Positions 10,101 through 56,627 of a stretch of 64,000 bases of DNA are shown here, piece after piece. The stretch comes from Panopea generosa (taxonomy: Eukaryota; Mollusca; Bivalvia; Adapedonta; Hiatellidae). The DNA is taken from the NCBI GenBank assembly GCA_029582155.1, contig CM055895.1, positions 48,756,057 through 48,820,056 of the forward strand, in the 5' to 3' direction. The notes under the pieces were generated by a model, which saw only the letters and a list, made by a program, of their open reading frames with translations, ran no database searches and had not been told where the DNA came from. Positions within the stretch are counted from its first letter, which is position 1; each line of letters starts with the position of its first letter. A program made the translations under genes and the position numbers.

Positions 10101-13100
10101 GTGGATATTGTGGTAGAATATTTAATGCTGCTATATAACCTTCAACACTGACAAGTGGATATTGTGGTAGAATATTTAATGCTGCTATATAACCTTCAAC
10201 ACTGACAAGTGGATATTGTGGTAGAATATTTAATGCTGCTATATAAACTTCAACACTGACAAGCGGATATTGTGGTAGAATATTTAATGCTGCTATATAA
10301 CCTTCAACACTCACAAGCGGATATTGTGGTAGAATATTTAATGCTGCTATATAACCTTCAACACTCACAAGCGGATATTGTGGTAGAATATTTAATGCTG
10401 CTATATAAACTTCAACACTGACAAGCGGATATTGTGGTAGAATATTTAATGCTGCTATATAACCTTCAACACTCACAAGCGGATATTGTGGTAGAATATG
10501 TAATGCTGCTATATAACCTTCAACACTCACAAGCGGATATTGTGGTAGAATATTTAATGCTGCTATATAACCTTCAACACTCACAAGCAGATATTGTGAT
10601 AGAATATTTAATGCTGCTATATAACCTTCAACACTCACAAGTGGATATTGTGGTAGAATATTTAATGCTGCTATATAACCTTCAACACTTACAAATGGAT
10701 AGTATAAGTAGCTTTTAAACTGGAGATGTCAAGGGTTCTGGTCGCTTAAGTAGCTGACAAACGAGATATGTCAGCACAGTAAGCTTATATACGGAAGAAT
10801 TCAGAATTCCGAGTAGACGAAGAAAAGTTGGTGCATGATAAATGAATGGGCGAAGAAAAGTCGGTATTAGGACCATAAAGGCATAAACAGAGGAGTAAGA
10901 CAGTTGTTTCTAGAAAATAGACACGGTATAGCTGGTTAGTTTCAGATTGAAAAATTCTAACATTACTCCATTACTCTTTAATGCTGTTTCTGGTAAACAA
11001 ATGCAACTGAACAATTGTTTTATATATGCGCGTAGAAAAAAACAAATTGGAATTGCGTCCTTATCGAGAATAGGTAATAGATACAATTTTAAACGGACGT
11101 GTTGTGTCGGGGATTCCTGGAATAACTTATGTACAGGTTGGTTACATGGATCTGCTAGAGTGTACGAATGCCAATATATACTTGGTATTATACAAGATAA
11201 GTGACGTAATTTTCGTCTTCCATTTATATTTAGGTTTAAATGTAAAAAAAATCTTATCTTATCTTTTAATATTTAACATCGTCTTTATTATGGAGATATA
11301 AAATGCGTAAATAACCATGGTAAAACATTTAATAGTTTACCGTCATGTGTAACAAAAACGATATTTAGTCTGGCAGTAGGGCACCTAGGTCAGTTTAGCA
11401 TCATTTCATTAAAATAAAATTTCTTATTGCCAACACGAAGATGAAAATATGTTAGGCAACCCTTTAAAACATCACTAAAAAAATCCGATCTTGACAACTA
11501 ATATACACACACATATTAATTAATTTGAATTTGATGTACAGTCAATACGAACCTAAACCGCTTTGTAAATATAAATCTTTACGAACAAGAGAAGTAAAAC
11601 TATTCAATTTTCTATTTTAAAAGCATGTTATACTGATGAATGCAATTTCTCTTACCTGCATAAAGTTTCCATCACATTTGCATACCCGGCACAAACAGAT
11701 TTCCCAGTTCTCATCACGGACTCGGCGTCGCAGGGAGAGCGTGCAGATCTTCCAAAGTATCCATCCGTATCATACCTGAATTGGCATTGAAATCTTATAT
11801 TTACTGTAGGTTTAAGTGTTGAACGATGTGGTTCATTAATACATTCCCCATAAGCTGTTAGTTCCTACAAAACTGTACACATGTATTGGTAAATAGTCCG
11901 TTGTTCTAGCCAAGAAATAACTAAATTTTGAACAGATGTAAGTTAGTTTGCCTTTATCATCTGCGACCTTTGCTTTTCCATTATCTTGTAACATAGCAAT
12001 GGTCGAATATGATCAAGACTTGTTTGATACCCACTTTCGCCGTTTAAGTGTAACTCTTCAATACTGAAGGCAGAAAAAGTTAGGGTTAGTGTTAGTTCCT
12101 ATTCAAATACCGAAAGACAATAAACAATTATCAAGCTACGTTCAGTCTGCTATCAGATACACAGAAATGGGTAATCATTTCATGATTTTGACCTTGTTTT
12201 TGTTCACAAACGTGCTATAACAGAAATGAAAAATGGTCGAATAAATCATTAAATTATATAAATAAAAGGTATTGGACGCCTCTAATCAATTAAATTCTGT
12301 TATCTGACCTGACGCTTTGATACGGACATATTTCCCTTGTGTTTTTTTTAACATTTCCCTTCCACGTAAAGGTCTATACATTATACATATATCATTTTAA
12401 TGAAGACTAGCGTGATACACAACACATAGACAAACAACTAAACACGCAAACACAGAAATGTTACGAGCTATACAGAACATAAAATGGCTTATTTGACTTA
12501 AGGATACTATTGCTAATCATCATGATACGTGTATATCGTTAATAGGATATATATGTTTTGCACCTGAAATATTAAAGACAAAATTTGACACCACGTCATC
12601 TAAGCAATTAGAAGTTTATAATATTCTGTATTCGTTTTTTTTAATATTAAACTGTGTAGCTCTTCCATATAAGAGGTTTAAAGGGTCAGGGTTAGTTTCA
12701 TCGAGACACGAATATCAAACAAATTTCATATCGTGTACAAAACTGATTTCCTTTTAATATCTTGTATTTCTTTTTAAAATGATAAGGTGATCATATAAGT
12801 TGGATATAATGTTATATATATATATATATATTTATATACAATTAGTGACATTTAACACGTAGTGTTTTAAATGACCTTCAAGTTGTTAATAAAACGTACT
12901 ACATTATATTGTGTAAAATTATTAAAATCATTTTCTCTTTACCTATATTGTAAATTATCATTTTATTGTATGCATAATCCCTCCATATAAGAGGAAATAA
13001 TTAATGAAATCAAGGTACATTTATCATAATAGAGCACATTACATTACAGACTACTATATTACGTGTGGTCGTTGCTTTTCATTTATCAGGTCATTTTAAC

Positions 13101-15276
13101 TTATAGTCTGTTTCAGAGTTTTCGATATGAATGCACCTTTAAATTTCAGTGGGTTGGAGTGTACATATATATTTTTCCACAATGTTGTACGTTCTAACTA
13201 TTGAGGTAAAGCTCAGGTGGGGGTGGGGTGTGGGATAGATTCCGAACCCTTGCCCTCCTCCCCCCCCCCCCCCCCCTTAATCCACCCAGTAAAAGCACAT
13301 GTTTATGTAAGTTTGTGTTTGCAAGGACTTCAGATATAAAACTGCTATATAAAATACACTCTTAACTTATAGAACAAATCTATCGAGCGTTATTTATTTG
13401 ACTTTAAGTTATACATTCAGAACATGTCTTATCATAAATTAAAAAGAAATACGCGGAAGTTACTTGTGCACAAACAAATTGTTTTTTTACAAACGAACAT
13501 TTGATTAATTATTTCTTATCTGAAAATATATAAACATGCACTACAATTCTATTTCACCAAGGAAAGAAAGGGAACTGATTAAGCTTTCGAAAACGCCCGC
13601 GTATTCACGCAAACACTCGCGAAATCTTGTTTTCAATTATCTTAATTCGACAATAACAGTTATTTTTGATGAAGCATTAGATACAGTTTACCCATTCTGT
13701 AAGCATACGTATTTTTAATATTATAAACAAAGTGTGTCTGAATTGATCTCGTTTTGTACAGAATTTCAGTCTGCAGAATCACAATGTTGATTCGGGTTCC
13801 TGAGACAATATTACTTCAAACAGCAATGTTTTTAATTCAAGATCAGTTTGCCTGATCAAAACATTTCAGAACACCTATAGGTTACATGCTTTATTCCGTG
13901 TATGTTAAGTCATTGCCTGTGAATTATGAGTGAGTAATCAAATAATTAACTAGTCGTATGCTATCATTGATGTCAACAACTTCAAATGTCACTTCAAAGT
14001 GACCAATTGTGAATGAGCTTTCAAATTGATGAAATTATACAATTTATTTTATATTGGTCAAGTACTACTTAATATATATTTTAAAAAATAAATAAAGCAG
14101 CTGATATAACGGTTTTATTCACTGTAGTTGACTGTATTTTCACTTTAAAATACCACTTATTGTTTTAGAACTTGACTTTACATATTGTGTTATTAAAAAA
14201 GTGACATGTAAACCTGATTAGACTGGGTACAATATCTTATTATATGTATAAATGTTTGGCTGCCTATGTTTATATTATATCGTAGTAATCATGTCATACA
14301 AACAGCTACATACATAAGATAAACGATAGCAATACAAGATTATGTCAGGTTTATAACTGGAGTAGATATTACGTAATTGTTTAATATCAGCTGAATAAAT
14401 TCAATGTCTATATTCTATATATGTTCAATGTCGAATAATCTATTTCAGAAGAAAGTCTTAATAAATTAAATGATGTATATGCTTATAAATGAAATACTCT
14501 ATACTGATTATACGTACCTGACATTTTCTGTAATCCATACAAAAAACGCCCTAACTAGCATCTTTGAATCCTTTGAAGGCGTGGATAGATATGTCACAAG
14601 ATCTTCCACGGAGTTGCGTAGAGAAGAAGGTGCCTGTAAATAAAAAAAACAACACTGTTTAACGCGTTCTCCTTCTTTATGATATCAGGCAGTATTAATT
14701 AAATGACTCGTTTTAAAACATTGACATTGCGATCAAAATGATCAGGGGAACCGATAGAGTCTGATATTGATATTGAAACATTTTTGTTTGTCTTTAAATC
14801 AATATAAACACTGATGTTGAAAGTGTTTTCAAAGCTTAATTTCTCTTCGTGAAATTGAATGAATAATTCTTTACCAATCATTTCATTATTAATGGCAATG
14901 ACAATGCCATGGACAACAATGGCATTGACAATATGACATAACTCTATGACATCATAAAATGACAATGACAATGGTAATAACAATTACAATAACGATTGAA
15001 ACAGATATTCCATTTACAACTATAAATGGAATGACAATGGTAATAACAATAACGATTATAACACTTATTTCAATTCCAATTACAAATGAAATGATAAATA
15101 TTTAAATGTTTATTGTGGTTATCCTTTTTTACCGCTTTTGCATTCTCATCAACTCTGCGATACAACTTGTCGGACTCATTTTCGTCGGCTAACAAAGAAT
15201 TTACATTTTCACCCTTTTTTACTTTATTGTTTTTTTTACTTTCACTTCCACCTTCTTTTGAATTGATACATCCCAT
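3988..15276 (-). CDS. KY-like: Gene A: KY-like (kyphoscoliosis peptidase/hillarin-type) transglutaminase-like protein, complete, 4 exons
   Basis: Joining 15276-15133, 14633-14518, 11775-11656 and 5275-3988 on the minus strand gives 144+116+120+1288 nt, one open frame of 555 aa, with AG/GT at every junction. The N-terminus MGCINS fits N-myristoylation at Gly2 with palmitoylation at Cys3. The transglutaminase-like core spans about residues 74-180 (LVRAFFVWITENVRYDTDGY) and carries Cys115 in SVCAGYAN, His159 in DHAWN and Asp174 in VDSTWG. These are the expected Cys-His-Asp triad. Two similar beta-rich modules (about 243-355 and 362-475) and a shorter tail (475-555) follow, as in KY-family proteins. 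Known relatives (vertebrate KY, annelid and fly hillarin) are cytoskeleton-associated; whether this one is proteolytic or cross-linking cannot be read from sequence. A noncoding upstream exon is likely, because an AG sits just before TGTAACG-ATG. Exon C could be an alternative first exon. Confidence 0.88.
5466..5790. repeat. 41-bp minisatellite in gene A intron 3
   Basis: About eight imperfect units of gttctggtcgcacaggtagc followed by tgacagatgggagatgccagc. Isolated diverged units recur near 9600-9640 and 10720-10780. The ~100-aa open frames across it are repeat artefacts. Confidence 0.85.
5858..8546. mobile_element. Candidate 2.7-kb TIR-bounded element in gene A intron 3
   Basis: The left end gcctgtaacattaaattttg and the right end aacatttaatgttacaggc form inverted termini. 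Subterminal gaccc/ttgaaaa words occur at both ends (5880-5935 and 8465-8535). No transposase is recognised inside. No target-site duplication is evident, so a chance pairing of two separate repeats remains possible. Confidence 0.45.
7059..7194. repeat. (CA)n / (CACT)n microsatellite
   Basis: A compound simple repeat: CA, then a CACT block, then CA again. It lies within the candidate TIR element. The open frame across it is an artefact. Confidence 0.97.
8547..9830. other. Gene A intron 3, AT-rich, no feature recognised
   Basis: Mostly AT-rich sequence with homopolymer tracts. A diverged unit of the 41-bp minisatellite appears near 9600-9640. Confidence 0.4.
9831..10694. repeat. 54-bp minisatellite, exactly 16 units, gene A intron 3
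   Basis: The unit is gtggatattgtggtagaata, tttaatgctgctatataacc, ttcaacactcacaa. The 864 bp divide into 16 units with few substitutions and no length change. Because 54 is divisible by 3, long frames stay open on both strands (an 18-aa repeat SVEGYIAALNILPQYPLV on minus). It sits inside an intron, has no family similarity, and is not called a gene. Confidence 0.95.
10695..11655. other. Gene A intron 3, remainder
   Basis: Contains one or two diverged 41-bp minisatellite units (10720-10780); otherwise nothing is recognised. Confidence 0.4.
11656..11775 (-). CDS. KY-like: Gene A exon 3 (carries catalytic Cys115)
   Basis: The 120-nt exon has acceptor TTCAG and donor GTAAGA. It encodes YDTDGYFGRS and then GKSVCAGYANVMETLC. 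The cysteine of SVCAGYA lies where the transglutaminase-like superfamily nucleophile sits. Gene B exon 3 is also 120 nt but has serine at this position. Confidence 0.92.
11776..14517. other. Gene A intron 2
   Basis: AT-rich intron with a (TA)n tract at about 12813-12832 and a poly-C tract at about 13257-13276. No embedded gene or element is recognised. Confidence 0.55.
13257..13276. repeat. Poly-C tract
   Basis: A run of C preceded by C-rich sequence; a likely sequencing and replication trouble spot. Confidence 0.9.
14518..14633 (-). CDS. KY-like: Gene A exon 2 (start of transglutaminase-like core)
   Basis: The 116-nt exon has acceptor TTTACAG and donor GTACGT. It encodes APSSLRNSVEDLV followed by the KY-family signature LVRAFFVWITENV and ends in phase 2 (AG|G, Arg87). 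Gene B exon 2 has the same length and phase, which strongly supports both boundaries. Confidence 0.9.
15133..15276 (-). CDS. KY-like: Gene A coding exon 1 (MGC acylation N-terminus)
   Basis: This exon encodes 48 residues beginning MGCINSKEGG, then a lysine/asparagine-rich linker, and ends YRRVDENAKA before a GTAAAA donor at 15132 (phase 0). The ending aligns with KVDDHARN at the ends of exon C and gene B exon 1, which fixes the donor. A longer reading through the donor to 15070 is open but has no family similarity. The ATG is preceded by TAG-TGTAACG, so the 5' UTR probably continues in a separate noncoding exon. Confidence 0.75.
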
Positions 15277-15544
15277 CGTTACACTATATCACGTATAGAC
15301 GTCTCCACTATTATTTCTACAATCATGTATACGAGCATAATATAGACACGCATTTATAAAGGTTTATCTTTATAGTCAGGGCCATCGTGTAACGTCGCTA
15401 ATGTATGCTCGCTCTGTATGGCCAAAAAACAATACTGACTGAAACTGATACTAAAGGTGGTATTAGTTGGGTAGATATAGATAGAGGTAATTTGACTGAT
15501 TTAAACTTTACAGTTTCTCATTATTATACACATACAATGTTAAA

Positions 15545-15568
15545 TATATATATATATATATATATATG
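15545..15568. repeat. (TA)n microsatellite
   Basis: A simple TA run upstream of gene A exon 1, followed by a G-rich stretch (15590-15640). Confidence 0.9.
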
Positions 15569-16289
15569 ATACCAGATAATTTAGAGGGGAAATGGAAGTT
15601 GGTGGGGTGGGATGGGGTGTGTATGAGGGGGCGAGGAGGGATTAATGTTATGTATGATTGTATGCATCGTTAAGAAGCAACTTTAGTTAAAGAAAATCAA
15701 CATTGATATGTAGATCTGCGTTCCAAGAGATACTTGAAACCACCAACTAGTAGATACAGATGTTCAAAGAGTCGTTACTTTAACGGCAGGTTATGATCGT
15801 AACAAATTGTCATTACTTCAATAACCCATTGTACATGAAAACTTAGAATTTTTAAAGATATTGGACATACAAGCTTTCAACTAACGGGTGTGTTAAGGTC
15901 ACAAAGCTTTGAACAGCTCATCCCAGGACTGTGCACGAGTATAGTGCGGCCTGATTTCTTAAATTTATCACACGCTGCACTTAAGGTGACCCTGTGTCAA
16001 GGGAAATAAATTATGTTCACCCGAATCTAAAATAGCACAGGCACGTCTACAGATGGTAGCTTAAATGTATTTTAAAAACAATCACTACCATATTTCGGAA
16101 AACTGAACACGTGACTGCGCATGTCGGTGAGTCAGTTCTAAACGTAGCTGTACTTTCTTTGATACGCTTTATATTTTCAAGATCTTATTAATTACTTTTC
16201 ATATTAAAAATGTATATATCAATGGTACTTCCTTACTTGTAATACATACTAAAACAGCATGACATTTAGCACTGGAACACTTGAAACAG

Positions 16290-20739: not shown

Positions 20740-20824
20740 CCCCATGAAGGGGATTGTGCTTTATATTAACTATTGCCCCATGAAGGGGTTGTGATTTGTG
20801 TGATTTATTTACCCCATGATGGGG
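20740..20824. repeat. Three tandem ccccatgaagggg hairpins
   Basis: Three copies of CCCCATGA(A/T)GGGG followed by (a)ttgtg start at 20740, 20776 and 20812, exactly 36 bp apart. Each is a perfect 4-bp inverted repeat. The function is unknown. Confidence 0.6.
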
Positions 20825-20975: not shown

Positions 20976-21400
20976 TTAAGGTCTCACTACACCGTTCAGT
21001 TTTGTTCTTTGTTCTATATAAAATAAGGTCGAGGATTTCCAAGGTAAAAACAAAATTCCACATAGATTTTTTTAAAAGAATTTTTTTCATAGCAGGAATG
21101 TATACCCGCATAAAATGCACAATTACTAGTAGGTTGACCAGCTTGTTTTTTTTAAAGAGGGTACAGAGACACCCTAAGATTAAAAAAAAACGTCCTTAAA
21201 TGCTTATAAACACATGTATATGTTGAAATCCTATACAAGTTCAGTTCTTACTCTACTCATCTGCAGCAAGTAATCACAACCACTATGAACAATTTTGAAA
21301 TTATTTTAAAACCAAATTACAAAGGATCATTTTTAAGTGTAAAAATCATATTATCGAGGGAAAAAAAGAGAGTAACTGTGTAATGAGACGCAAAGCAACT
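20976..21400. repeat. Dispersed repeat, copy 2 of 2
   Basis: Direct-orientation match to 205-640. It lies just downstream of exon C on the minus strand, while copy 1 lies beyond the 3' end of gene A. Confidence 0.65.
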
Positions 21401-21580
21401 GTGCATTGATTTAGTGTGATAAAAATGTAATTTATATGAGATAAGGAGCCAAGCTCCCGTTTCTGGGCCATGATCTGGGTACTTAAGCACTCTCAACTGT
21501 GGATATATAAGTCTATTGAGAAGTACATTATATTATGTGACATTTCTGAGTAAAAAAGACATAATTATATACATTCTTAC

Positions 21581-22660
21581 ATTTCTGGCGTGGTCATCAA
21601 CTTTCGAAAACATTGCGGTGTGGACGGAAGTGTTGTCTTCTTCATGTCTCTCCTCAGCATCCCCCGTCTTGGAACCTGTGTGACCCTTCGCAGACATTCT
21701 TGCTTTTCTGGTGGGGTCATCCACCTCCGAAACCACTGCCATGTTGACCGAAGTGTTGTCTTTTTTAAGACTCTCCTCAGTATCCCCCGTCTTGGAACCT
21801 GTGTGACCCTTCGCAGACATTCTTGCTTTTCTGGTGGGGTCATCCACCTCCGAAACCACTGCCATGTTGACCGAAGTGTTGTCTTTTTTAAGACTCTCCT
21901 CAGTATCCCCCGTCTTGGAACCTGTGTGACCCTTCGCAGACATTCTTGCTTTTCTGGTGGGGTCATCCACCTCCGAAACCACTGCCATGTTGACCGAAGT
22001 GTTGTCTTTTTTAAGACTCTCCTCAGTATCCCCCGTCTTGGAACCTGTGTGACCCTTCGCAGACATTCTTGCTTTTCTGGTGGGGTCATCCACCTCCGAA
22101 ACCACTGCCATGTTGACCGAAGTGTTGTCTTTTTTAAGACTCTCCTCAGTATCCCCCGTCTTGGAACCTGTGTGACCCTTCGTAGACATTCTTGCTTTTC
22201 TGGTGGGGTCATCCACCTCCGAAACCACTGCCATGTTGACCGAAGTGTTGTCTTTTTTAAGACTCTCCTCAGTATCCCCCGTCTTGGAACCTGTGTGACC
22301 CTTCGTAGACATTCTTGCTTTTCTGGTGGGGTCATCCACCTCCGAAACCACTGCCATGTTGACCGAAGTGTTGTCTTTTTTAAGACTCTCCTCAGTATCC
22401 CCCGTCTTGGAACCTGTGTAACCCTTCGTAGACATTCTTGCTTTTCTGGTGGGGTCATCCACCTTCGAAACCACTGCCATGTTGACCGAAGTGTTGTCTT
22501 TTTTAAGTCTCTCCTCAGTATTCCCCGTCTTGGAACCTGTGTAACCCTTCGTAGACATTCTTGCTTTTCTGGTGGGGTCATCCACCTTCGAAACCACTGC
22601 CATGTTGTTTATTTTAAGGTTCTCCTCAGCAACCACAGTCATGGAACTTGTGCAACCCAT
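21581..22660 (-). CDS. Exon C: MGC-anchored first exon with eight 41-aa tandem repeats, KY-family exon 1 homologue
   Basis: The open frame encodes 360 residues: MGCTSS (same acylation-type start as genes A and B), a short lead to NNMAVVS, eight units of 41 aa (123 bp) of the type KVDDPTRKARMSTKG-YTGSKTG-NTEERLKKDNTSVN-MAVVS, then KVDDHARN directly before a GTAAGA donor at 21580. The sequence around the ATG (cagtgaacactagcg) and the end KVDDHARN|gtaaga match gene B exon 1 almost base for base. The repeat is Lys/Thr/Ser/Asp-rich and probably disordered. The donor is phase 0 and could join gene A exon 2, giving a protein of about 867 aa. No private exons 2-4 are seen between 21580 and 15277, so an orphan exon is the alternative. 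The two other open frames here are by-products of a repeat length divisible by three. Confidence 0.7.
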
Positions 22661-22705: not shown

Positions 22706-23895
22706 GAACAAACCGCTACTAGATACGACACTGTGAACAAATCACTAAATAAGGTACTGAGAACAAATAGATACGGTATTGAGAACAAACCGCTACATAC
22801 ATCACTGAGAACAAACCACTACATATGGTACTGAGAACAAACCACTAGATACGGTACAGAGAGCAAACCACTCGATAAAGTAATGAGAACAAACCACTAG
22901 ATACGACACTGAGAACAAACCACTATATACGGCACTGAGAGCAAATCATTAGATACTGTACTGAGAACAAACCACTAGATACGACACTGAGAACAAACCA
23001 CTAAATAAAGCACTGAGAACAAACAACTAGATACTGTACTGATAACAAACACTAGATACAGTATTGAGAACGAACCACTAGATACGAAATTGAGAACAAA
23101 CCACAAGATATGGTACTGAGAACAAACCACAAGACACTGTACTGAAAACAAACAACTCACTAGAAACGGTTCTGAGAACAAACCACAAAATACGATACTG
23201 AGAACAAACCACTAGGTACAGCTCTGAGAAAAAACACTATATATGGCACTGAGAACCTCTAGAAAAGGTACTGAGAACAAACAACAAGATACTGTACTGA
23301 GAACAAACCACTACATACGACACTGAGGGCAAACCACTAGATACGACACTGACAACAAACCACTAAGTAAAGCATTGAGAACCAACCTCTAGATACGGTA
23401 CTGAGAATAAACACTAGATACGGTACTGAGAACAAACTAATAGATACGGTACTGAGAACAATAACTATATACGGTACTGAGAACAAACCACTCTATATGG
23501 CACTGAAAACCAATAGATACGGTATTGGAAACAAACCACAATGTACTATTACTGAGAATAAACCACTCACTAAAAAATGTACTGAGAACAAACCACTAGA
23601 TACGACACTGAGAACAAACCTAAGATAAAATAATGGGAATAAGCACTAGATACGACACTGAAAACAAACCAAAGATAAGGCAATTAGAACAAACCACTAG
23701 ATACGGTATTGAGAACAAACCACTAGATACGATATTGAGAACAAATCACTAGATATGACACTGAGAACAAACCCATAAATACAGCACTGAGAACAAACCC
23801 CTAGATACGGTACTGAAAACAAACCACTAGATACGGTACTAAGAACAAACCATTAGATACGGTACTAAGAACAAACCATTAGATACAGCACTGGG
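22706..23895. repeat. 26-bp minisatellite, unit accactagatacggtactgagaacaa
   Basis: Roughly 45 degenerate units upstream of exon C on the minus strand. The same family recurs at 28128-28990 and 35040-35722. It may hold the 5' UTR or promoter of exon C, but no promoter motif is recognised. Confidence 0.92.
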
Positions 23896-26100
23896 AACAT
23901 ATAGGTTTATTCGTTTATTAAGCCAAACATGGCCCATCTATATTTATCTTAATTACAAACATATATATGTTATTGATACATGGCAAGTGATAATATGCAT
24001 GAATATTTAGATTAGTTCGTATGGCAATGTTTAATACAATATATAGGCTTATTAATTTGCATGGAGTTCACGATGTTTAGCGTCATTGTTAATGGTTGGT
24101 ACATTATCCAAAACATTAACAAAATTCGGTCCAATGGGAGAGAGAAGCTTGTTGCTGTGGGTTGTTGCGCATTTTTGTGATCTTTTAAAGCCAAATTATT
24201 CCCTTTATCCACAGATCTAAATAATCTATTTATTTTTTGTCAAAATAAGTCGTTTGCAAATTAGCGTAATTATTTTGTTCAAATGTAAGTGGCTTACAAT
24301 TACACTATGTTTTACTAGTCCATAGTCGATAATCGTGTACCAATCCTGAGCTGGAGGTATACACTATATAATAGCGTTATTCAATGAAATTGAATAGTTT
24401 GAAGAAAACGTATTACATGTATGCGAATTTAGACTGTAAGGGATACAAGTCATTTTAAAAAATGTATAGAGTATTGTTATTATTTATTTCAATAAATATG
24501 CGATAATAGGGATTCTATATCGTATGTTAATTTGTTATCATTCCTAATTTAAATGCTTTGTATATAAAAACGTAGAGTTTTCTTAATTCAGATTGGTTTG
24601 CGCACTTCAGTAGCTGTGTGCATTTGAAATAGCTTGGGTGTGTCCAGTAATATGGTTTTATATATGTTTTCCTTAGTTCACCATATTTTTTACATTCTAT
24701 TAGGAAGTGGTATTCGTCTTTTAAAATATTACATTATAAAAACCTAGTTTAGATAATAGATTTTGTACTTGTGAAACTCAGTTAATTCTTATTTATATAA
24801 CTGATCCTTCCTGTCTCTCCATAAATGAAATTATTTTGTGTCGATAGCTTTACGCCTAAAAGCCTCTTACAAAACTTAAATGTATTCTTTCGACCTGCGC
24901 ATCTTTGTTAAACCCCCATTCCTCCGATGAATAATTCAGAATACCCGTAATGAGCTTATCAAATAACTCTAAAATATGTTTTGGAGAAATATTAGTATAA
25001 TTGTTTTAGTAGCCATTTAGTTTAAAAATAGCCTTAAGGGCTTGCCCCGAAAGTACTTTATTGGTTTTATTAAAAGATCCACCTGGTGTGAATATAAACC
25101 CTACATATTTGAATTTACTTACAATCTCAATGACTGTATCATTATAATTGTATCTCAAGTTTTTTTGGTAAACTTCCCCCTTTCTGAACACCATAATTTT
25201 AGTTTTTGCCATATTAACTGTTAATTTCTACCTAGTACAATACTCTGCTTAAACATTTAATGCGTTTTGTAAATCTTCTGTCGATTTTGCTAATAAAATG
25301 ATATCATCAGCATATAACAGTAAACATACAGTGAAAGGAAAAAGAAAGTATACATACCTATAAACGCCGACAGGTCAAGGAACAATAAATGTATTGCATA
25401 TAAATTTTGTTTATTTTTATTTGATCATATTGTTGATTAAAAAAAACAACATTTAATTCATTTCAAAGCAAAACAATAAGAAAAAAATCAGTTCATTTTC
25501 CATCACATGAATAAACTTAGCCAATAACGAAATAATTTTAAAAACCAAAATGTATACTTTTCTTTCCTTTCTGTGTATATTAAACATACCAACATCAATT
25601 CCCTCAACCCTTTTTTGTAAAGTTCTTGTTCAAAGTCATTTAAATGCATGCTAAACAGAAATGGCAAAACACATTCATCTTGACGGACCCCGAGATAACA
25701 CGAGAATTCACTGCTTAAAGTATTCATATATTTTACTTTTGATTTTATACATTGATTTAATTACTTCCAAAATTTCCCCCCGAACCCCTAATTTAATCAG
25801 TTTATACCAAAGTATGTCCCTAACGACAAAGTCGAAAGCCTTTTTAAAAACTACAAATGCACAGTATAGACTCCCTCGTTGGTTTAAAGTTTGTGAAATA
25901 ACCCCGTGTAAAACAAAAATTTTGTCTGACGTGCTCATACCTGCTTGTGCCTCTACATTGGCTTGATAAATTTCTGCCCAAGATATTAATCTGTTATTTA
26001 GAACTCTTGTAAACAGTTTGCCCAAGACACTTAATAAAGTAATCCCCCTATAATTGCTTGGATCACTCGTGTCCCAACTTTTTAAAATAGGCACTATCTC
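23896..26100 (-). mobile_element. LINE, 3' part with reverse transcriptase, frameshifted
   Basis: In successive minus frames from 26094: SNYRGITLLSVLGKLFTRVL with NNRLISWAEIYQANVEAQAG, CAFVVFKKAFDF, YLGVRQDECVLPFLFSMHLN, then LLYADDIILLAKSTEDLQNA (catalytic YADD, about 25260-25330) and FKYVGFIFTPGGSF. Stops and an AT-rich interruption (25340-25500) break the frame. The 3' end appears to be near 23900, in a ggcttaataaacgaataaac-type tail. The endonuclease is missing. Confidence 0.8.
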
Positions 26101-26118
26101 TTTTCTCCATAGATACCA

Positions 26119-26165
26119 ATCAAAGAAGGCCTTTGAAAACAGTGCAGGGTAGAGTTCAGATAGCT
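26119..26165. repeat. Fragment of the PiggyBac-type MITE
   Basis: aagaaggcctttgaaaacag followed by tgcagggtagag resembles the interior of the MITE at 19324-19530. No termini are seen here. Confidence 0.4.
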
Positions 26166-26254
26166 CGTATACTTTACATTAACGGTTCTTTGTACAGAGC
26201 GGACAATTTTACAGATGCTTAGGACGGACCCAAGGAACAGTTGAAATTCCTACT

Positions 26255-27720
26255 CTGGAATGTACAGGGGATTTAACAAAAACTGTCAGACTGTGATTTC
26301 TTAAACTTCGTAAATCAGTATTATATTTGCTTTTAACTAAAACTTGGAACTCAAATATTTCTTGTGTAAATATTGATGGTTATACCGATTTTTCATGTTT
26401 TAGACCGAAATCTAATCGGAAAGCTAATCGTCATAGTGGGGGTATAATTATATATTACAAGGAAAAATATGAAAATATGATTGAGTCCCCCCCTCCCCCC
26501 CACCTGAGAGCTCAACTATTTATAAAAATGCAATGCAAACTTAGATCTTTTTGAATATGACTTCTTTAACCAATTAAACACCGATATTATTAAATATCAA
26601 TACTATGGTGATATTTATGTCACAGGTGACTTCAATTCTAGAGTAGGTCAACGGTCAGATTTAGTCGATAGTATTAATCTTGACCGATATGTTGACATGC
26701 CGTTAAGCGATGACCCGTGCACGGCATACCTGTACGGTATTCCCTAGACAATACAGTGAACACGTTTGGCAACAGGCTGTTAAATCTCTGTAAAGAGAAT
26801 AGCCTAGCTATTGTGAACGGTCGCCTTAAGCAAGGTAAATTTACCTGCTTTAATTTGATCAGAAATCAAACCGCATCGAGTGTTGTGGATAATTGTTATT
26901 AAAATTCTGGATTAAGATTTTGATAAGCCCAAATTCTATTATATATAGATCTTTTATTGATCAATGCGAATCTATCACTGGTAAAATGTGAAGAAATATT
27001 TGAATAGACTAGGATTTAGTGAACTATGGTTAAACATTAATACTGACGTAAATTATCTACCCATGTTTAGACAAAGAATACGTGATCAGTATATCCAGAG
27101 TTGGAATACTAGCATTGAAGAATTGCCTAAATTTGAATATTTTAGGAAATTCAAGAAACAGTTTTATTTTTTGAAGATTATATAGATGTTATAAAAAATA
27201 AATAGAAAACAGTTAACGTGTCTTAGATTAAGCTCCCACGATTTAAAAATTGAGTTTGGAAGATTTAATAATATAATCTAAATTGTGTTCCGTGAAAGTT
27301 GTTGAAACTGAATATCATTTCTTACTATGTTGCCCAAGATACCATAGCATCAGAATATTATATTTAAATAGTTCATCTTGGCCTACAGCTCAGAAATTTT
27401 TAAGTATTATGTCAAATAAAAACAAGAAAAATATTTTAAAAATAGGAAAGTATGTATCTGAAGCGTTTAAGATAAGAAAACTAGCACTAGAACAAGTAAA
27501 TGCTATTAAATAATGAAACTACTTTACGATCCCTATATAATGTAACTGTTTCTTATACTCAATATGTGTATAGCTTAGTTCATAACTTGTATGTGAATGA
27601 TATTTATGATTTTGTTGTTTATTGTGTCTTGGCAATATTTATTTAAAAACTTTGTAAATGGCCAAAGGCAGATGTTTGCCGAAATTGCCAATACAATTTG
27701 ATTTGATTTGATTTGACTAT
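26255..27720 (+). mobile_element. LINE with endonuclease and C-terminus, reverse transcriptase deleted
   Basis: The 5' part encodes APE-type endonuclease motifs: WNVQGI near 26260, TKTWNSN, then DGYTDFSCFRPKSNRKANRH with SGGIIIYYKE, and VTGDFNSRVGQRSDLVD. At about 26895 the sequence jumps to the LINE C-terminal region (YLNRLGFSELW, then VKVVETEYHFLLCCPRYHSI, a Cys/His-type C-terminal motif). The whole reverse transcriptase is missing. It ends in a tttgatttgatttga tail near 27710. Confidence 0.8.
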
Positions 27721-28127
27721 TTAGTCTGGCGGCCATTGACATAATTTGCTGGTCGTTGTTTTCAAGGCGTTTTATTTTGGTCAATATAATTGACAGTTTG
27801 TCATCCATTGTTAACGTGTTTTGAGAATATTGTGACAACTGACCCGATATCACTGGCTGTTTAACAAAAGTTTCACAGTTTTGAGGATTGTGTCTATACC
27901 TCTCGCTCTAACGGTGCGTACCTGTTTGCTGTGGGTACTCCAAATGTCACATTTTAGCGATCTAATTCATTATGTTGTTATGCCATCATACACGTAAACG
28001 TTATTTAAACACTTTGTCCGATAAATTTCCAAAAATGTTTACATAAATAACTTTCAATCCAATTTTTATTCCATTTCTTCACCTCCCGCTAAAAACAGTC
28101 AACCGCCATGTATCATCACGTGACCAG
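27720..28127. other. Unique-looking stretch within the duplication
   Basis: A 92-codon minus frame (27853-27575) overlaps the LINE tail and is conserved at 34768-34490 with one or two changes, as expected for a recent duplication. No family is recognised. Confidence 0.4.
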
Positions 28128-28990
28128 ATATACCACTAGATATGGTACTGAGAATAAACCACTAGATATGGTACTGAGAGTAAACCACTAGATACGGTAC
28201 TGAGAATAAACCACTTGATATTGTATTGGGAACAAATCACTAGATATGGCACTCTGAACAAACCACTAGATATGGAACTGAGAACAAACCACTAAATTTC
28301 ATACTGAGTACAAACCACAAGATATGGAACTGATACCAGACACTAAATACGGTACTGAGAACAAACACTAGAAATGATATTGAGAACAAACCACTAGATG
28401 CGTAACTGAGAACAAAAAACTAGATACGACACTAAGAGCAAACCACTAGGTACAACACTGATAACAAATCACTATATATGGCACTGAGAACCACTAGATA
28501 CGACACAGAGGACAAACCACTAGATATGATACTGACAGCAAAGCATTAGATAATGTACTCAGAATAAACACCATATATGGTAATGAGTATAAAATACAAA
28601 ATACTGTACTGAGAACAAACCACTCACTAGACACGGAATTGAGAACAAACCACTACATGTGACACTGAGAACAAACAAGAGATAAGGTAATGAGAATAAG
28701 CATTAGATATGACACTGAAAACAAACCAAAGATAAGGTAATGAGAAAAACAACTAGATACGACACTAAGACCAAACCACTAGATACAGTTTCGAAAACAA
28801 ACAACTAAATACAACACTGAGAACAAATCACTAAATATAGCATTTAGAAAAAAACACTAGATACGGTACTGAAAACAAACAACTAGATACGGTACTGAGA
28901 ACAAACCACTAGTCTAAGACTGGTAATGAGAACAAACCACTAGATATGGTACTGAGAACAAACCATTAGATACGGTTCTGACAACAAAGG
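28128..28990. repeat. 26-bp minisatellite (actagatacggtactgagaacaaacc family)
   Basis: About 33 degenerate units, the same family as 22706-23895, carried in segmental duplication copy 1. Confidence 0.92.
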
Positions 28991-30195
28991 CTGTAAAAAT
29001 ACTAGCTATTATAATGACTATAATATACTCGCTAGCATAATGGTTATATTATACTGGCTACCATAATGACTGTATATATACTAGCTACCATAATTGTTAT
29101 ATTATACTAGCTACCATAATGACTGTATATATACTAGCTACCATAATGATTATAAAGTACAAGTTACCATAATGCTTATGATATTCTAGCTACCATAATG
29201 GTTATAAAGTACTAGTTACCATAATGATAATAATATACTAGCTACCATCAAGAGTATAAAGTACTAGTTACCATAAGTATTTAAATAAACTAGCTACCAT
29301 AACGGTTATAAAGTACTAATTACCATAATGACTATATTATACTAGCTACCATCATGGTTATATTATACTAGCTACCATAATGACTAATACACTTACTACC
29401 ATAATGGTTATAAAATATTAGTTACCATGATGATTATAGTATACTACCTATATGTACCATAATAGTTATAATATACTAGCTAGCATAATGGTTATAATGC
29501 ATGTACAACAATAATGGTTATAATATACTAGCTACCATATTGGTTACCATATTGGTTATAATATACTAGCTAACATAATGATTATAAAACATTACCTACC
29601 ATAATGGTTACAATATACTAGTTACCATAATTATTATAACATACTAGCTACCATAATGGTTATAATATACTAGCTACTATAATGATTATAATATACTAGC
29701 TACCATAATGATTATAAAGTACTAGTTGCTATCATGATTATAAAGTACTTGTTACCATAATGATTATAACATACTAGCTACCATAATGATTATAAAGTAC
29801 TAGTTACCATAATGGTTATAAAGTACTAGTTACCATAATGATTATAATATATTAGCTACCATAATGATAATAATGTACAAGCTACCATAATGGTTATGAA
29901 GTACTAGTTACCATAATGATTATGATATACTCGGTACCATTATGATAATAACATACTAGCTACTATAATGATTATAGAGTACTAGTTACCATAATTATTA
30001 TAATATACTAGCTACCATAATGATTATAAAGTACTAGTTGCCATAATGGTTATAAAGTATTTGTTACCATAATGATTATAATATATAAGCTACCATAATG
30101 ATTATAAAGTACTAGTTACCATAATGGTTATAAAGTACTAGTTACCATAATGATTATAATATACTAGCTACCATAATGGTTTTAAAGTTCTAGTT
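28991..30195 (+). repeat. 26-bp minisatellite 2, unit tactagctaccataatgattataata
   Basis: About 45 units with substitutions such as atggttataaagtactagtt. It ends abruptly at the left inverted-repeat arm. Confidence 0.95.
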
Positions 30196-30570
30196 ACTGA
30201 TGTACGGACGGTTGGATGAACGGACACAGGTGGAAGAACGGATCGACGGATATGCGTACATACTATTATAAATTATAAGATACCAATATGATAATGATTT
30301 TTAAATACTAGATACGATACTCAATATAAAACACAAATATATAGCTTACCAATTTTTTTCCTCTAAAAAGTCACTGTTTAAATATGTTCGCTATAATATT
30401 ATAACATTTCTTGTCTATGTGGTCGTGTCTTACCGTTTTTTTGTTTCTATTGTTCAATGTGTATTTATATCTTCAGTTTTATCTAAATAGATTGGATATC
30501 CGTTTTCAGGATTACACAAACATGACGACTGAACAAACAAAGGGTATTATTAATTATTTAAAAATATTGT

Positions 30571-30640
30571 AAATGGCCAAAGGCATATTTTTGCTGATAG
30601 TTTGCCAATAAAATTGAATTGGATCGAATTGAATTAAATG
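30571..30640 (+). mobile_element. LINE 3'-tail fragment in the left arm
   Basis: gtaaatggccaaaggcatat, a ttgccaata word and a gaattggatcgaattgaatt tail resemble the 3' end of the LINE at 27650-27715. The mirror copy is at about 42985-43060. A second, more distant tail-like sequence is at 31880-31995. Confidence 0.55.
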
Positions 30641-31177
30641 TAGCTCCGACTATAACTATAAATAGAACATACGTACAGACGTATAACATAGTATAGCTAA
30701 ATAGCAATAAAGTACGTGCTGATAGCTTGTATGTATGTATGTACTTGTTATTTGTTTTAACATTGTACTTGAAGCGAATTAAACGTGTACAGAAAAAAAA
30801 CTGTATAAAAATGTTTGAATCTGTAAACAACAGCAAATATCGATTTAATAAATGGGTGTCTTCGCCATTGCTTATTTTATAATGACGCGTGTACTATGTA
30901 GAGAGAGGTACACGCTATGTACCATCAGATAATGAAACATACAGTTATTCCTCCTTAAACAGCCATTTGTCTTCAGCAGCCACATTTTTATTTCCAATTT
31001 CTTTCAGTTCACAACAAACTAACCTGTATTAAGCAACAATCTATCTTAAAAGCCCATATATGCTATTTCTCTTTACTGGCTGTTTAAGAAAGGTTTAACT
31101 CTACTGTACTGTCCTATGGTTTCAAGTGAATGAAAGTATTTATCACTTGTAATAACAATAATTAATTAGCTCTAAAA

Positions 31178-31300
31178 GGTTCCTCTATGGCCGACTGGTA
31201 CAATGTTTCGTCGGGCTCGGGTTATACCAGTTTCGTAGGGATCCGTAAACATTCCAGTGGAGGTTACATGAGTATGATTTTAAACGCAGAAATGTTCAGA
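31178..31300 (+). pseudogene. tRNA-like (SINE-like) remnant in the left arm
   Basis: tggccgactggtacaatg resembles an A-box region and a degenerate B-box-like gggttataccag follows. The mirror copy is at about 42325-42445 in the right arm. Confidence 0.3.
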
Positions 31301-33055
31301 TAAAGATAATATATAAAAAGACACAAGTGATGCAATGCTGTGGACTAAGTGATGGCGAGTTACCACTGAAACCTAAAAAGAATTTCATTTAAGCCTTAAT
31401 ACGTATTTTCTTTCTGTGCCGTTTTTCTACGATAAGTCATTTAGAACATCCATGCTGTGTCTTTCCTATATATATATTTATCTGACCAAATGTGTATGTT
31501 CTAACTATACACATGTGTTTTCTGTCGTATGTTGTATGTGATAAAATTAGGGCTAAGTTCCCCATGGTGAATTTGCTACGAACTGGAAGGTCCGAGGTTA
31601 TGAAACTTTGTTCCATGTCTAATTCAAGAATAACTAAAATTCGAATGAACACATTGCCCTAGATAAATGTCACTTTCCTTAGTAGACGTATTAGATAGTA
31701 TGGCATCGTTGTTTATAAGATAGAGTTTGTCTAATATCTCTGAGAAATTCGATTATAGTACTGTCACTTAAGATTTGATTATGTTTATACATTAGTATGA
31801 TGGATGTTTTATATATTTCATTGCCAAACTTATGCACCTACACAACATGTATTTCATGAATTATGTAAATTCTTTGTAAATGACGCAATATTATCTACTA
31901 TTATCAGACATATTTTCACATAACTGGTTTTGTAAAGGCCAATAGCAGTTTTGCAGCTGATTACTTTATAAAACTGAGTTGAGTTGATATTCATAAAATA
32001 TGTTTTTGTTATATAAATAATGTTTACCCATAAGCTTTATGTAATATTGACTCCCATTTACAACCACCCTGGTTGTTTTGTACACATTTTGTGTTTGTGC
32101 TGTAAATGGATTTTCAAGCTATTAAAAAAATTAAAATAAAACGAAAGGTTTCAACACCAATTGAACAATAGAATGAACGAAAACAAACGAATCACAATAC
32201 CTAAATATGTTGGAGATACGATCTATTACGTGTTTAGCCATTGACTTGATTTTGGATATTTGATTGTAAGTTTTCCGGTAAGATATAAATGTAGCTTTTA
32301 TAAATAGGACTAATGAGGTCATCGTCATTATTACGGCAAGTGTTTAATTTTCATTGTGGTAGCTGGTACTTTATAATTATTATAGTAGCTAGTATACTAT
32401 TATCATAATGGTAGCTAGTATAATATAATCATTATGGTAACCAGTACTTTATAACCATTATGGTAGCTAGTATATTATTATCATTATGGTAGCTAGTATA
32501 TTATAATCATTATGGTAGCTAATGTATTATGATCAATATGGTAGCTAATGTATTATGATCAATATGGTAGCTAGTATATTATAATCATTATGGTAGCTAA
32601 TGTATTATGATGAATATGGTAGTTAATGTATTATAATCATTTTGGTAGCTAGTATATTATTGCTAGTATATTATAATCATTATGGTAGCTAGTAAATTAT
32701 TATCATTATGGTAGCGTGTATATTATTATCATTATGGTAGCTAGTATATTATAACCATCATGGTAGCTAATATATTATAATCATCATGGTAGCTAGTATA
32801 TTATAATCATTATGGTAAAAAGTACTTTATAATAATTATTGAATCTAGTACTTTACAATCATCATGGTAGCTAATGTGTTATAATCATTATGGTAGCTAG
32901 TATATTATAGCTAGTATATTATAATCATTATGGTAACTAGTACTTTATAACCATTATGGTAGCTAGTTTATTATAATAATTATGATAACTAGTACTTTAT
33001 AACCATTATGGTAACTAGTATTTTATAATAATTATGTTAGCTAGTATATTATAAT

Positions 33056-33799
33056 CATCAAGAGGATTATATTTATTCTTCATTCAATTATTCAAAAGAT
33101 TTTAGCTAATAAATCCAAACTATATCGTGCATTCATTGGCTACGAAAAAGCTTTTGACACCGTTATCAGGGATGCAATCTGGGTTGCACTTATACAATCA
33201 GGATTAAGCTGTAAAATGGTTAAAATCATTAAATGTATTTATGACATTGTTAAATCTTGTGTAAAAATTCCGTCTAACAGTAATTTATCGGAATTCTTCG
33301 ATGTTACGCTTGGTTTAAAGCAAGGGGCGCTACTCTCGCCTCTTTTATTTCTAATTTTTATTTAATAAAACAAAAATATGTATCTTCGAGACAAGAAAAC
33401 AAATTAATAACTTTGTTTTTTTTTGTTAACGGGGAACCTATTGAAGTTGTTGACACGTTTTGTTATTTAGGTATAAAATTCACTCACACGGGTAACATGA
33501 CACATGCTGTGAACGCGTTATCTGAACAAGCATTGAAGGCTTATAACAACTTACTATCTGTTTGTGATAGACTTAATCTCGACATTAAAATCAAATTATC
33601 TTTTTTTGACTCGATGGTGGTACCTGTTATCTTATATGGGGCGGAAGTCTTGGGTATCTATGATTTCAAGGAAGTGGATAAAATTCATATTAAATTCTGC
33701 AAACGTATTTTAGGTGTTCGTCAGCCAACATCAAATCTAGCTGTATTAGTGGAACTATGAAGATAATTATCCACTGTCAATTATAGCTAAAGAGAGAGC
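33056..33799 (+). mobile_element. LINE reverse-transcriptase fragment with the catalytic block deleted
   Basis: The frame encodes LYRAFIGYEKAFDTVIRDAI and LGLKQGALLSPLLFLIFI, then stops. A second frame (33413-33760) encodes NGEPIEVVDTFCYLGIKFTH and MVVPVILYGAEVLGIYDF..KFCKRILGVRQPTSN, the thumb and connection region. The intervening FADD/YADD segment is missing. It runs directly into duplication copy 2 (LINE C-terminus). Confidence 0.8.
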
Positions 33800-36765
33800 A
33801 TTAAAATTCTGGATTAAGATTTTGATAAGCCCAAATTCTATTATATATAGATCTTTTATTGATCAATGCGAATCTATCACTGGTAAATGATGGGCGAGTA
33901 ATGTGAAGGAATATTTGAATAGACTAGGATTTAGTGAACTATGGTTAAACATTAATACTGACGTAAATTATCTACCCATGTTTAGACAAAGAATACGTGA
34001 TCAGTATATCCAGAGTTGGAATACTAGCATTGAAGAATTGCCTTAATTTGAATATTTTAGGAAATTCAAGAAACAGTTTTATTTTTTGAAGATTATATAG
34101 ATGTTATAAAAAATAAATAGAAAACAGTTAACGTGTCTTAGATTAAGCTCCCACGATTTAAAAATTGAGTTTGGAAGATTTAATAATATAATCTAAATTG
34201 TGTTCCGTGAAAGTTGTTGAAACTGAATATCATTTCTTACTATGTTGCCCAAGATACCATAGCATCAGAATATTATATTTAAATAGTTCATCTTGGCCTA
34301 CAGCTCAGAAATTTTTAAGTATTATGTCAAATAAAAACAAGAAAAATATTTTAAAAATAGGAAAGTATGTATCTGAAGCGTTTAAGATAAGAAAACTAGC
34401 ACTAGAACAAGTAAATGCTATTAAATAATGAAACTACTTTACGATCCCTATATAATGTAACTGTTTCTTATACTCAATATGTGTATAGCTTAGTTCATAA
34501 CTTGTATGTGAATGATATTTATGATTTTGTTGTTTATTGTGTCTTGGCAATATTTATTTAAAAACTTTGTAAATGGCCAAAGGCAGATGTTTGCCGAAAT
34601 TGCCAATACAATTTGATTTGATTTGATTTGACTATTTAGTCTGGCGGCCATTGACATAATTTGCTGGTCGTTGTTTTCAAGGCGTTCTATTTTGGTCAAT
34701 ATAATTGACAGTTTGTCATCCATGGTTAACGTGTTTTGAGAATATTGTGACAACTGACCCGATATCACTGGCTGTTTAACAAAAGTTTCACAGTTTTGAG
34801 GATTGTGTCTATACCTCTCGCTCTAACGGTGCGTACCTGTTCGCTGTGGGTACTCCAAATGTCACATTTTAGCGATCTAATTCATTATGTTGTTATGCCA
34901 TCATACACGTAAACGTTATTTAAACACTTTGTCCGATAAATTTCCAAAAATGTTTTACATAAATAACTTTCAATCCAATTTTTATTCCATTTCTTCACCT
35001 CCCGCTAAAAACAGTCAACCGCCATGTATCATCACGTGACCAGATATACCACTAGATATGGTACTGAGAATAAACCACTAGATACGGTACTGAGAGTAAA
35101 CCACTAGATACGGTACTGAGAACAAACCACTTGATATTGTATTGGGAACAAATCACTAGATATGGCACTCTGAACAAACCACTAGATATGGAACTGAGAA
35201 CAAACCACTAAAGTTCATACTGAGTACAAACCACAAGATATGGAACTGATACCAGACACTAAATACGGTACTGAGAACAAACACTAGAATTGATATTGAG
35301 AACAAACCACTAGATGCGTAACTGAGAACAAAAAACTAAATACGACACTAAGAGCAAACAACTAGATACAATACTGATAACAAATCACTATATATGGCAC
35401 TGAGAACCACTAGATACGACATAGAGGACAAACCACTAGATATGATACTGACAGCAAAGCATTAGATAATGTACTCAGAATAAACACCATATATGGTAAT
35501 GAGTATAAAATACAAAATACTGTACTGAGAACAAACCACTCACTAGACACGGAATTGGGAACAAACCACTACATGTGACACTGAGAACAAACAAGAGATA
35601 AGGTAATGAGAATAAGCATTAGATATGACACTGAAAACAAACCAAAGATAAGGTAATGAGAAAAACAACTAGATACGACACTAAGACCAAACCACTAGAT
35701 ACAGTTTCGAAAACAAACAACTAGTTACCATAATGATTATGATATACTCGGTACCATTATGCTTATGATATTCTAGCTACCATAATGGTTATAAAGTACT
35801 AGTTACCATAATGATAATAATATACTAGCTACCATCAAGAGTATAAAGTACTAGTTACCATAAGTATTTAAATAAACTAGCTACCATAACGGTTATAAAG
35901 TACTAATTACCATAATGACTATATTATACTAGCTACCATCATGGTTATATTATACTAGCTACCATAATGACTAATACACTTACTACCATAATGGTTAAAA
36001 AATATTAGTTACCATAATGATTATAGTATACTAGCTATATGTACTATAATGGTTATAATATACTAGCTACCATAATGGTTATAATGCATTTACAACAATA
36101 ATGGTTATAATATACTAGCTACTATATTGGTTATAATATACTAGCTAACATCATGATTATAATACATTACTTACCATAATGGTTACAATATACTAGTTAC
36201 CATAATTATTATAACATACTAGCTACCATAATGGTTATAATATACTAGCTACTATAATGATTATAATATACTAGCTACCATAATGATTATAAAGTACTAG
36301 TTGCTATCATGATTATAAAGTACTTGTTACCATAATGATTATAACATACTAGCTACCATAATGATTATAAAGTACTAGTTACCATAATGGTTATAAAGTA
36401 CTAGTTACCATAATGATTATAATATATTAGCTACCATAATGATAATAATGTACAAGCTACCATAATGGTTATAAAGTACTAGTTACCATAATGATTATGA
36501 TATACTCGGTACCATTATGATAATAACATACTAGCTACTATAATGATTATAGAGTACTAGTTACCATAATTATTATAATATACTAGCTACCATAATGATT
36601 ATAAAGAACTAGTTGCCATAATGGTTATAAAGTATTTGTTACCATAATGATTATAATATATAAGCTACCATAATGATTATAAAGTACTAGTTACCATAAT
36701 GATTATAAAGTACTAGTTACCATAATGATTATAATATACTAGCTACCATAATGGTTTTAAAGTAC
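33800..36765 (+). repeat. Segmental direct duplication, copy 2
   Basis: Matches 26897-30193. The same LINE C-terminal frame (VKVVETEYHFLLCCPRYHSI) lies at 34198-34428, the 26-bp 'gatacggtactgag' array at 35040-35722, and the join to the ctagctaccataatg array at 35723. In copy 2 the LINE is continuous with reverse-transcriptase sequence upstream; in copy 1 it is joined to endonuclease sequence. Confidence 0.88.
35040..35722. repeat. 26-bp minisatellite (actagatacggtactgag family), duplicated copy
   Basis: Unit order and private variants (for example gatatggaactgataccaga) are the same as at 28128-28805. Confidence 0.92.
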
Positions 36766-45679: not shown

Positions 45680-45787
45680 ATGGGTTGCTCAGGTTCAACG
45701 ACTAAAGAACCAGAGAATATATGTGAAAAGAGCAAAGCATCAGATAACATAGCAGTCTTTCCAAAAGTGGATGATCATGCCAGAAAT
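45680..45787 (+). CDS. KY-like: Gene B exon 1 (MGC N-terminus)
   Basis: Thirty-six codons, MGCSGSTTKE to FPKVDDHARN, with donor GTAAGA at 45788 (phase 0). It is the unrepeated counterpart of exon C: both the bases before the ATG and the start of the intron are alike in the two loci. Confidence 0.85.
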
Positions 45788-56325: not shown

Positions 56326-56627
56326 TTATAATATAATTGTTGGATTTGACGTGCCACCTGATTCCTCTTTGTCTCCAAAGCTGTCCAACTTATCTTCCAA
56401 ACCTGGTATTATACGCACCATGTCATCGGTGCTGGCGTTCCGTTGCATATATAGTGTCACAAAGACCACGGCCGTGGCTTCTGTTATCATGAAGGCTATC
56501 CCAGCGAAGAAAAATGACCACCCATACTCGTACGCAAATTGTTTATCCTCTTTACCCTTTGACCTATGACCTACTTCATCGTTGATGGCGGAAATATAAA
56601 AGATGATACCAACAGCTAGCGTTAGTC
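56326..56627 (-). CDS. CACNG5/7-like: Gene D last exon (end of TM3, TM4, cytoplasmic tail)
   Basis: The acceptor TACTTCAG precedes GACTAACGC, and the stop TAA is at 56328-56326. It encodes about 100 residues: LTLAVGIIFYISAINDEVGH, YGWSFFFAGIAFMITEATAV, LYMQRNA and a 40-residue acidic tail. The open frame continuing to 56670 is intronic. Confidence 0.88.

Follow-up and report, generated by a model that had tools for sequence, protein, structure and literature searches.

The stretch of Panopea generosa DNA analysed here (the window, 64,000 nt) holds two genes for KY-like proteins, the kyphoscoliosis peptidase family defined by PF01841 and PF23265. They lie head to head, gene A on the minus strand (15276-3988) and gene B on the plus strand (45680-49990). 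Both have four exons, with equal lengths of exon 2 and of exon 3, and their predicted products have 555 and 434 residues, respectively. The exon models of both genes are comparative and were made from sequence alone. Their parts are as follows.

15277-15590, minus strand: region upstream of gene A, aligned in the paralogous gene D, with TATAAAGA at -98
15133-15276, minus strand: gene A exon 1, 48 codons, MGCINSK...RRVDENAKA, phase 0 donor
14518-14633, minus strand: gene A exon 2, 116 nt, to which exon C might be spliced across an intron of 6947 nt
11656-11775, minus strand: gene A exon 3, 120 nt, contains SVCAGYAN
3988-5275, minus strand: gene A exon 4, end of the transglutaminase core and two Ig-like_KY stretches
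45680-45787, plus strand: gene B exon 1, 108 nt, comparative model
47436-47551, plus strand: gene B exon 2, 116 nt
47936-48055, plus strand: gene B exon 3, 120 nt, Ser at the place of the gene A Cys in SVCAGYAN
49030-49990, plus strand: gene B exon 4, remaining transglutaminase core and one Ig-like_KY stretch

Both predicted proteins score above the cut-offs of the two Pfam models, as is expected of KY-like proteins. Transglut_core (PF01841, cut-off 23) is matched with 51.5 bits by gene A and 60.6 bits by gene B, and Ig-like_KY (PF23265, cut-off 27) with 114.4 bits in two stretches by gene A and 40.6 bits in one stretch by gene B. At what we take to be the catalytic Cys, His and Asp positions of the KY-like core, gene A has the motifs SVCAGYAN, DHAWN and LVDSTWG; at the Cys position gene B has AVSEGYAN, with Ser in place of the Cys. 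The motif SEGYAN also occurs in two paralogues on C14 (L035 6935-7054 and L034 7898-7984), and several KY members in this genome may be inactive enzymes, with Ser for the catalytic-type Cys. The genome search gave 30 KY-like matches, those of genes A and B among them, spread over more than 10 separate loci on C14, C2, C6, C8, C9, C10, C15 and C17, and 11 of the 30 are on C14. The gene B protein used as query did not list exon C, described below, so this search is blind to first exons of that kind.

The remainder of the window is rich in duplicated and repeated DNA. An inverted duplication of about 2.17 kb (30199-32350 and 41261-43426, 96.6% identical) surrounds minisatellite arrays, and a direct duplication of about 1.25 kb (26898-28131 and 33800-35047) is 98.5% identical. 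About 5.5 kb at 35720-41260 consist of a 26-bp minisatellite in 212.7 copies, a similar unit being present at 28996-30197 and 32351-33058. A repeat with 73% identity over 413 columns is found downstream of gene A (204-609) and just downstream of exon C (20978-21359). Reverse transcriptase fragments (RVT_1) lie at 25708-26178 and, on the minus strand, at 2432-2848, the second below the cut-off. Two exon-like minus-strand frames (56326-56673 and 62544-62867) have weak PMP22/claudin matches, the first 0.2 bits under the Pfam cut-off and the second well under, and between them lies a 68-bp array of 55.8 copies (58657-62444).

Upstream of gene A, on the same strand, is an exon that consists of nine copies of a KY first exon joined in one reading frame, here called exon C. 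Its parts and the array beside it are:

21581-22660, minus strand: exon C, 360 codons, nine KY first-exon copies in one frame
22565-22660, minus strand: copy 1, 96 nt, ATG and MGC kept, 12 nt missing in frame
21704-22564, minus strand: copies 2-8, each preceded by the 15-nt linker GCAAGAATGTCT[A/G]CG
21581-21703, minus strand: copy 9 and its linker, the unit that has diverged most, with the gene-B-like end KVDDHARN
21575-21580, minus strand: splice donor GTAAGA, in a 9-nt context AATGTAAGA identical to that of gene B exon 1
22718-23899, no strand assigned: 26-bp minisatellite, starting 58 bp upstream of the exon C ATG

The sequence-only reading had given the coordinates of this exon correctly: the ATG is at 22660, the GTAAGA donor follows directly after 21581, and the 360 codons between them are open. 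The length of 1080 nt is 96 + 8 x 123, and TRF describes the array as 8.4 copies of period 123 with 97% matches and 0% indels. The GC content of 0.493 is reached in only 3 of 3146 segments of 1080 nt taken in 20-nt steps, exon C included. The predicted protein begins with MGCTSS, and the corresponding starts are MGCSGS in gene B, MGCINS in gene A and MGCAGS in gene D. We take MGCTSS to be of the kind that is myristoylated and palmitoylated (MGCxxS motif).

The proposed homology of exon C to a KY first exon holds, and gene B exon 1 is the closest relative found: copy 9 equals it at 70 of 108 nt with no gaps. The two share the ATG context CAGTGAACA[C/T]TAGCGATGGGTTGC, the MGC start, the KVDDHARN end and the donor AAT/GTAAGA, all of which the earlier reading had listed. 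In the intron the DNA similarity persists for about 60 nt, at a score of 43 compared with at most 30 in 300 shuffles; there the alignment needs gaps, while that of the exon is gap-free. Upstream of the ATG the similarity reaches about 25 nt (score 27 for the last 58 nt, as high in 0 of 500 shuffles); further upstream, over nt 26-200, it does not stand out, since 99 of 300 shuffles score as high. By these features exon C is of the gene-B type, orphaned upstream of gene A.

The earlier reading had described eight 123-bp units inserted into a first exon. Eight in-frame units of 123 nt are indeed present, but they are copies of the exon itself rather than inserts: each consists of exon 1 (108 nt) and the 15-nt linker. 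Although eight units of foreign repeat placed in the exon would also lengthen it in frame, the units align end to end with gene B exon 1 and with exon C's own two ends, the linker is made of intron start and 5'UTR end, and the genome searches gave no source of the unit elsewhere. We therefore regard an insertion of foreign repeat units as very improbable indeed.

The linker can be read as the intron start after the final donor (GTAAGAATGT) followed by the end of the 5'UTR; this second part is CTAGCG, with one base less, or GCG, according to the position chosen for the join. The linker matches exon C's own intron start and 5'UTR end at 13 of 15 positions, a value reached by 0 of 20000 permutations and by 1 of 20000 random 15-mers from the window; against the gene B flanks it has a raw score of 11. 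Because the linker is composed in this way, the duplicated piece was apparently the whole first exon, including its start codon and splice donor. In the inner copies the ATG is changed to AAG, the Cys codon to Tyr or His, and the donor GT to GC; with the inner start and donor altered in this manner, the copies are read through as one exon.

The distribution of differences between the units suggests an order of events. Units 5-7 are identical over 123 nt, and units 1-4 differ from them at 5, 2, 1 and 1 sites, respectively. This near-identity of the inner units supports the recent expansion that had been claimed. The further statement that the near-identical units are those nearest the donor holds for units 5-7 and fails for the unit that touches the donor, which differs at 17 of 123 sites. 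Between copies 1 and 9 there are differences at 24 of 96 sites. The inner units carry the copy 9 state at all nine informative sites of columns 1-41 and the copy 1 state at all nine of columns 70-108; the six sites in the middle are divided, two as copy 9, three as copy 1 and one as neither. Since the inner units resemble copy 9 in their 5' part and copy 1 in their 3' part, the inner unit would cover the join within an older array of two copies. Gene B exon 1, taken as outgroup, has the copy 1 state at four and the copy 9 state at two of the nine 5' sites, and the copy 9 state at five and the copy 1 state at three of the nine 3' sites. This polarity suggests the direction expected of a two-copy origin, though it is not clean.

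We consider it highly probable that exon C arose from a KY first exon of the gene-B type that was duplicated whole in tandem and of which the junction unit was then amplified. The piece duplicated in tandem would have comprised the final few bases of the 5'UTR, the start codon, the 108-nt exon, the donor and about 10-12 bases of the intron. The inner donor would then have changed from GT to GC and the inner start from ATG to AAG, which merged the two copies into one exon, and the two copies would have diverged, to the 24 of 96 sites seen at present. The unit across their junction, with the tail of copy 1 before the linker and the head of copy 9 after it, would finally have been amplified to give nine copies, most likely by unequal exchange or slippage. 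In a last step, which we only infer, the exon would have been retained to serve gene A as an alternative first exon, with a phase 0 splice from 21581 to 14633.

This last step corresponds in part to the earlier proposal that exon C is spliced to gene A exon 2. The join is in phase 0 and gives an open product of 867 aa. However, gene A possesses an MGC exon 1 of its own, preceded by a region that is aligned in gene D, so exon C can be at most an alternative first exon, and it is of the gene-B type. The product would be a transglutaminase-like KY protein in which 360 residues replace 48 before the enzyme. About 350 hydrophilic repeat residues would lie between the acylatable MGC start and the enzyme, and the length of this tether would follow the copy number. 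One third of the residues of the exon C protein are charged, the net charge is +2, and 19% are hydrophobic. In the Uversky plot it falls on the disordered side by its composition (mean hydropathy 0.383, boundary 0.415), and a single-sequence AlphaFold model (all-beta, mean pLDDT 59.5, pTM 0.64) is too uncertain to decide on disorder. An anchored stalk, as had been suggested, is thus possible.

The reading frame also continues for 15 codons beyond the donor, to a stop at 21533, and the first AATAAA/ATTAAA downstream is at 20809. Exon C could accordingly be a self-contained single-exon gene, translated through the donor into a 375-aa MGC repeat protein with no enzyme domain. Against this, the donor 9-mer is identical to that of gene B, and in genes A, B and D the end [KR]VD[DE][HN]A[RK] directly precedes the junction of exons 1 and 2. 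We regard a single-exon gene as improbable.

No KY exon other than exon C was found between 15.3 and 45.6 kb by tblastn of the gene A, gene B and C-A proteins against the window (other matches E 3.1 or worse), and a third KY gene body belonging to exon C was rejected on these grounds. The lack of an own KY exon downstream fits a different explanation, that exon C is a relic, left behind either by a third KY gene resembling gene B or by a duplication of gene B that was only partial. It would have lost its promoter and later exons and would now be a non-coding minisatellite that is open by chance. In agreement with this, the upstream homology stands out for only about 25 nt and a 26-bp minisatellite begins at 58 nt. 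The 400 nt upstream of exon C contain no TATAAA, only TATATAGT at -269, within the minisatellite; in the 400 nt upstream of gene B neither TATAAA nor TATATAGT is seen. The window has many other tandem arrays, and one of them, a 54-bp array of 16.2 copies (96% matches) in intron 3 of gene A (9827-10701), lies within an open minus-strand frame of 307 codons; open tandem arrays therefore occur in the window besides exon C. The genome searches, moreover, gave no second array of this kind: exon C DNA had one occurrence in the genome, and the exon C protein had no credible second copy among the 113 of 138 candidates that were scored. Two protein matches, of 27% and 16% identity at E about 1e-6, contained 8 and 22 stops and were taken as repeat noise. 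Two Pfam matches of exon C above their cut-offs, SAM_DprA (39.3 bits) and Phage_base_V (31.8 bits), were put down to the repetition, no stretch passing alone, and three further Pfam matches were below their cut-offs, again with no stretch passing alone. What speaks against a relic is the state of the exon, in which the ATG, the MGCxxS, the donor and all 360 codons are intact and the sole gap between copies is of 12 nt and in frame.

The open frame as such carries little information. The tandem unit is open in three of six frames. The coding frame stays open in 514 of 2000 dinucleotide shuffles, about a quarter, as a relic open by chance would allow, and at least three frames are open in 235 of 2000. 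Since 38 neutral changes would leave exon C stop-free with a probability of 0.38, the lack of stops is unremarkable. An open frame through the array is, taken alone, weak evidence of coding.

Substitutions relative to gene B exon 1 were also compared. Copy 9 has more synonymous than replacement change, with pS 0.61 and pN 0.29 (Fisher 0.004, or 0.045 on the 96 columns shared with copy 1), and the inner unit, represented by copy 6 (identical there to copies 4-8), has pS 0.59 and pN 0.32 (Fisher 0.02). Copy 1 gives a weaker result in the same direction (pS 0.47, pN 0.31, Fisher 0.14), and its first 57 nt have no synonymous excess (0.39 and 0.39). By codon position the differences between copy 9 and gene B exon 1 number 12, 9 and 17, a third-position excess that is not significant (p 0.28). 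When the changes are assigned to branches, the synonymous share falls on the gene B branch together with the common stem, which have 8 synonymous and 10 replacement changes; copies 1 and 9 have 3 synonymous and 16 replacement changes since the duplication, and all five differences among units 1-7 are replacements. With 3 synonymous against 16 replacement changes, no purifying selection on the residues of exon C is seen after the duplication, as would be expected of a relic. In a control comparison, however, the first exons of A and D, both functional-looking, have pS 0.25 and pN 0.21, and are thus about as little constrained. First exons of this KY family appear to tolerate replacements anyway, and the lack of constraint in the exon C array does not decide its function. 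Neither the selection tests nor the open-frame tests tell an alternative first exon apart from a relic, and by them the two are about equally likely.

The paralogues bear on the question of whether exon C belongs with gene A. Gene D on C14 (L032) is the closest gene A paralogue found, with 80% identity over exon 4 and a first exon of the same kind as that of gene A (MGC). A single alignment of 486 columns (73.9%) between genes A and D spans exon 1 and about 314 bp upstream of the start codon. No exon of the C type was seen in 23.7 kb upstream of gene D exon 1 (L032 1-3677, L033 and L045), a match in L045 with E 2.5 being taken as chance; the idea that such an exon is an ancestral part of the A/D lineage was rejected because of this absence. 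Ten paralogue loci were examined in stretches of 10 or 20 kb, namely D, E, three others on C14, and L040-L044, and a fitting MGC frame was seen at two, D and E. Paralogue E (C14, near 43.02 Mb, L038/L037) has a 264-aa MGC frame followed by an exon in which MFKKVDDNSR stands close to the end, and next by exon 2. These pieces seem to be one gene with a long MGC-led N-terminus.

Use of exon C thus has in its favour an intact start, MGCxxS and donor, 360 open codons and a phase 0 join to gene A exon 2. The synonymous excess between copy 9 and gene B exon 1, their gap-free alignment over 108 nt beside an intron that needs gaps, and the lack of any other candidate partner among KY exons between 15.3 and 45.6 kb also favour it. 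Against it are gene A's own exon 1, the short upstream homology, the missing TATAAA, the lack of constraint after duplication, and the absence of a similar exon upstream of gene D. Taken by itself, the use of exon C as an alternative first exon of gene A is plausible but clearly short of an even chance. A relic is a strong competitor, which we would put a little below even. The best overall explanation in our judgement, close to even though still not reaching it, is a gene-B-type exon that was duplicated, amplified and kept as an alternative first exon of gene A.

A more elaborate version of exon C use was also considered. The eight inner junctions each carry AAA/GCAAGA, a donor of the GC type whose codon phase is that of the final GT donor. 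Of the 9 positions of the donor consensus, the inner sites match 6 and the final donor matches 7. Exon C could in that case be a telescoping exon, in which inner GC donors are used at times and give a ladder of membrane-anchored KY proteins with tethers of one to nine repeats. If this were so, changes in array copy number would add or remove rungs of the protein ladder. We think it quite unlikely, more so than a single-exon gene.

Compared with known systems, exon C is homologous to the first exon of KY-like proteins, that of gene B above all, and differs from these proteins in having no family domain, being at most an N-terminal part, and occurring ninefold. Coding minisatellites are tandem repeats within an exon. 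Exon C resembles them in its in-frame unit (123 nt, a multiple of 3, in an open and putatively coding array), in its near-identical inner and more diverged outer copies, and in the GC-richness of the array. Unlike them, it repeats an entire first exon, including the start codon and 5' splice site together with short pieces of intron and 5'UTR. Paralogue E is similar in its MGC start, its long hydrophilic N-terminal stretch, its MFKKVDDNSR exon and its exon 2, whereas no first-exon array was seen in its stretch by eye. The earlier reading knew of no described KY protein on a long membrane-anchored stalk. Among the titles and abstract openings seen, none concerned a KY protein with a repeated or acylated N-terminus. 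A long MGC-led N-terminal extension may not be unique, since paralogue E appears to have one.

In summary, the structure of exon C is real and well defined, with its anatomy corrected here, and the protein proposed for it is possible. Coding repeats and partial gene duplicates are ordinary. Exon C is an unusually legible record of exon lengthening, in which a splice site and a start codon were apparently absorbed by one tandem duplication and the junction unit was then multiplied. If exon C is not transcribed, it would illustrate that a first exon no longer in use may look like a coding repeat when the raw sequence is read. If it is transcribed, an acyl-anchored enzyme would have gained a tether of variable length by the use of an alternative first exon.
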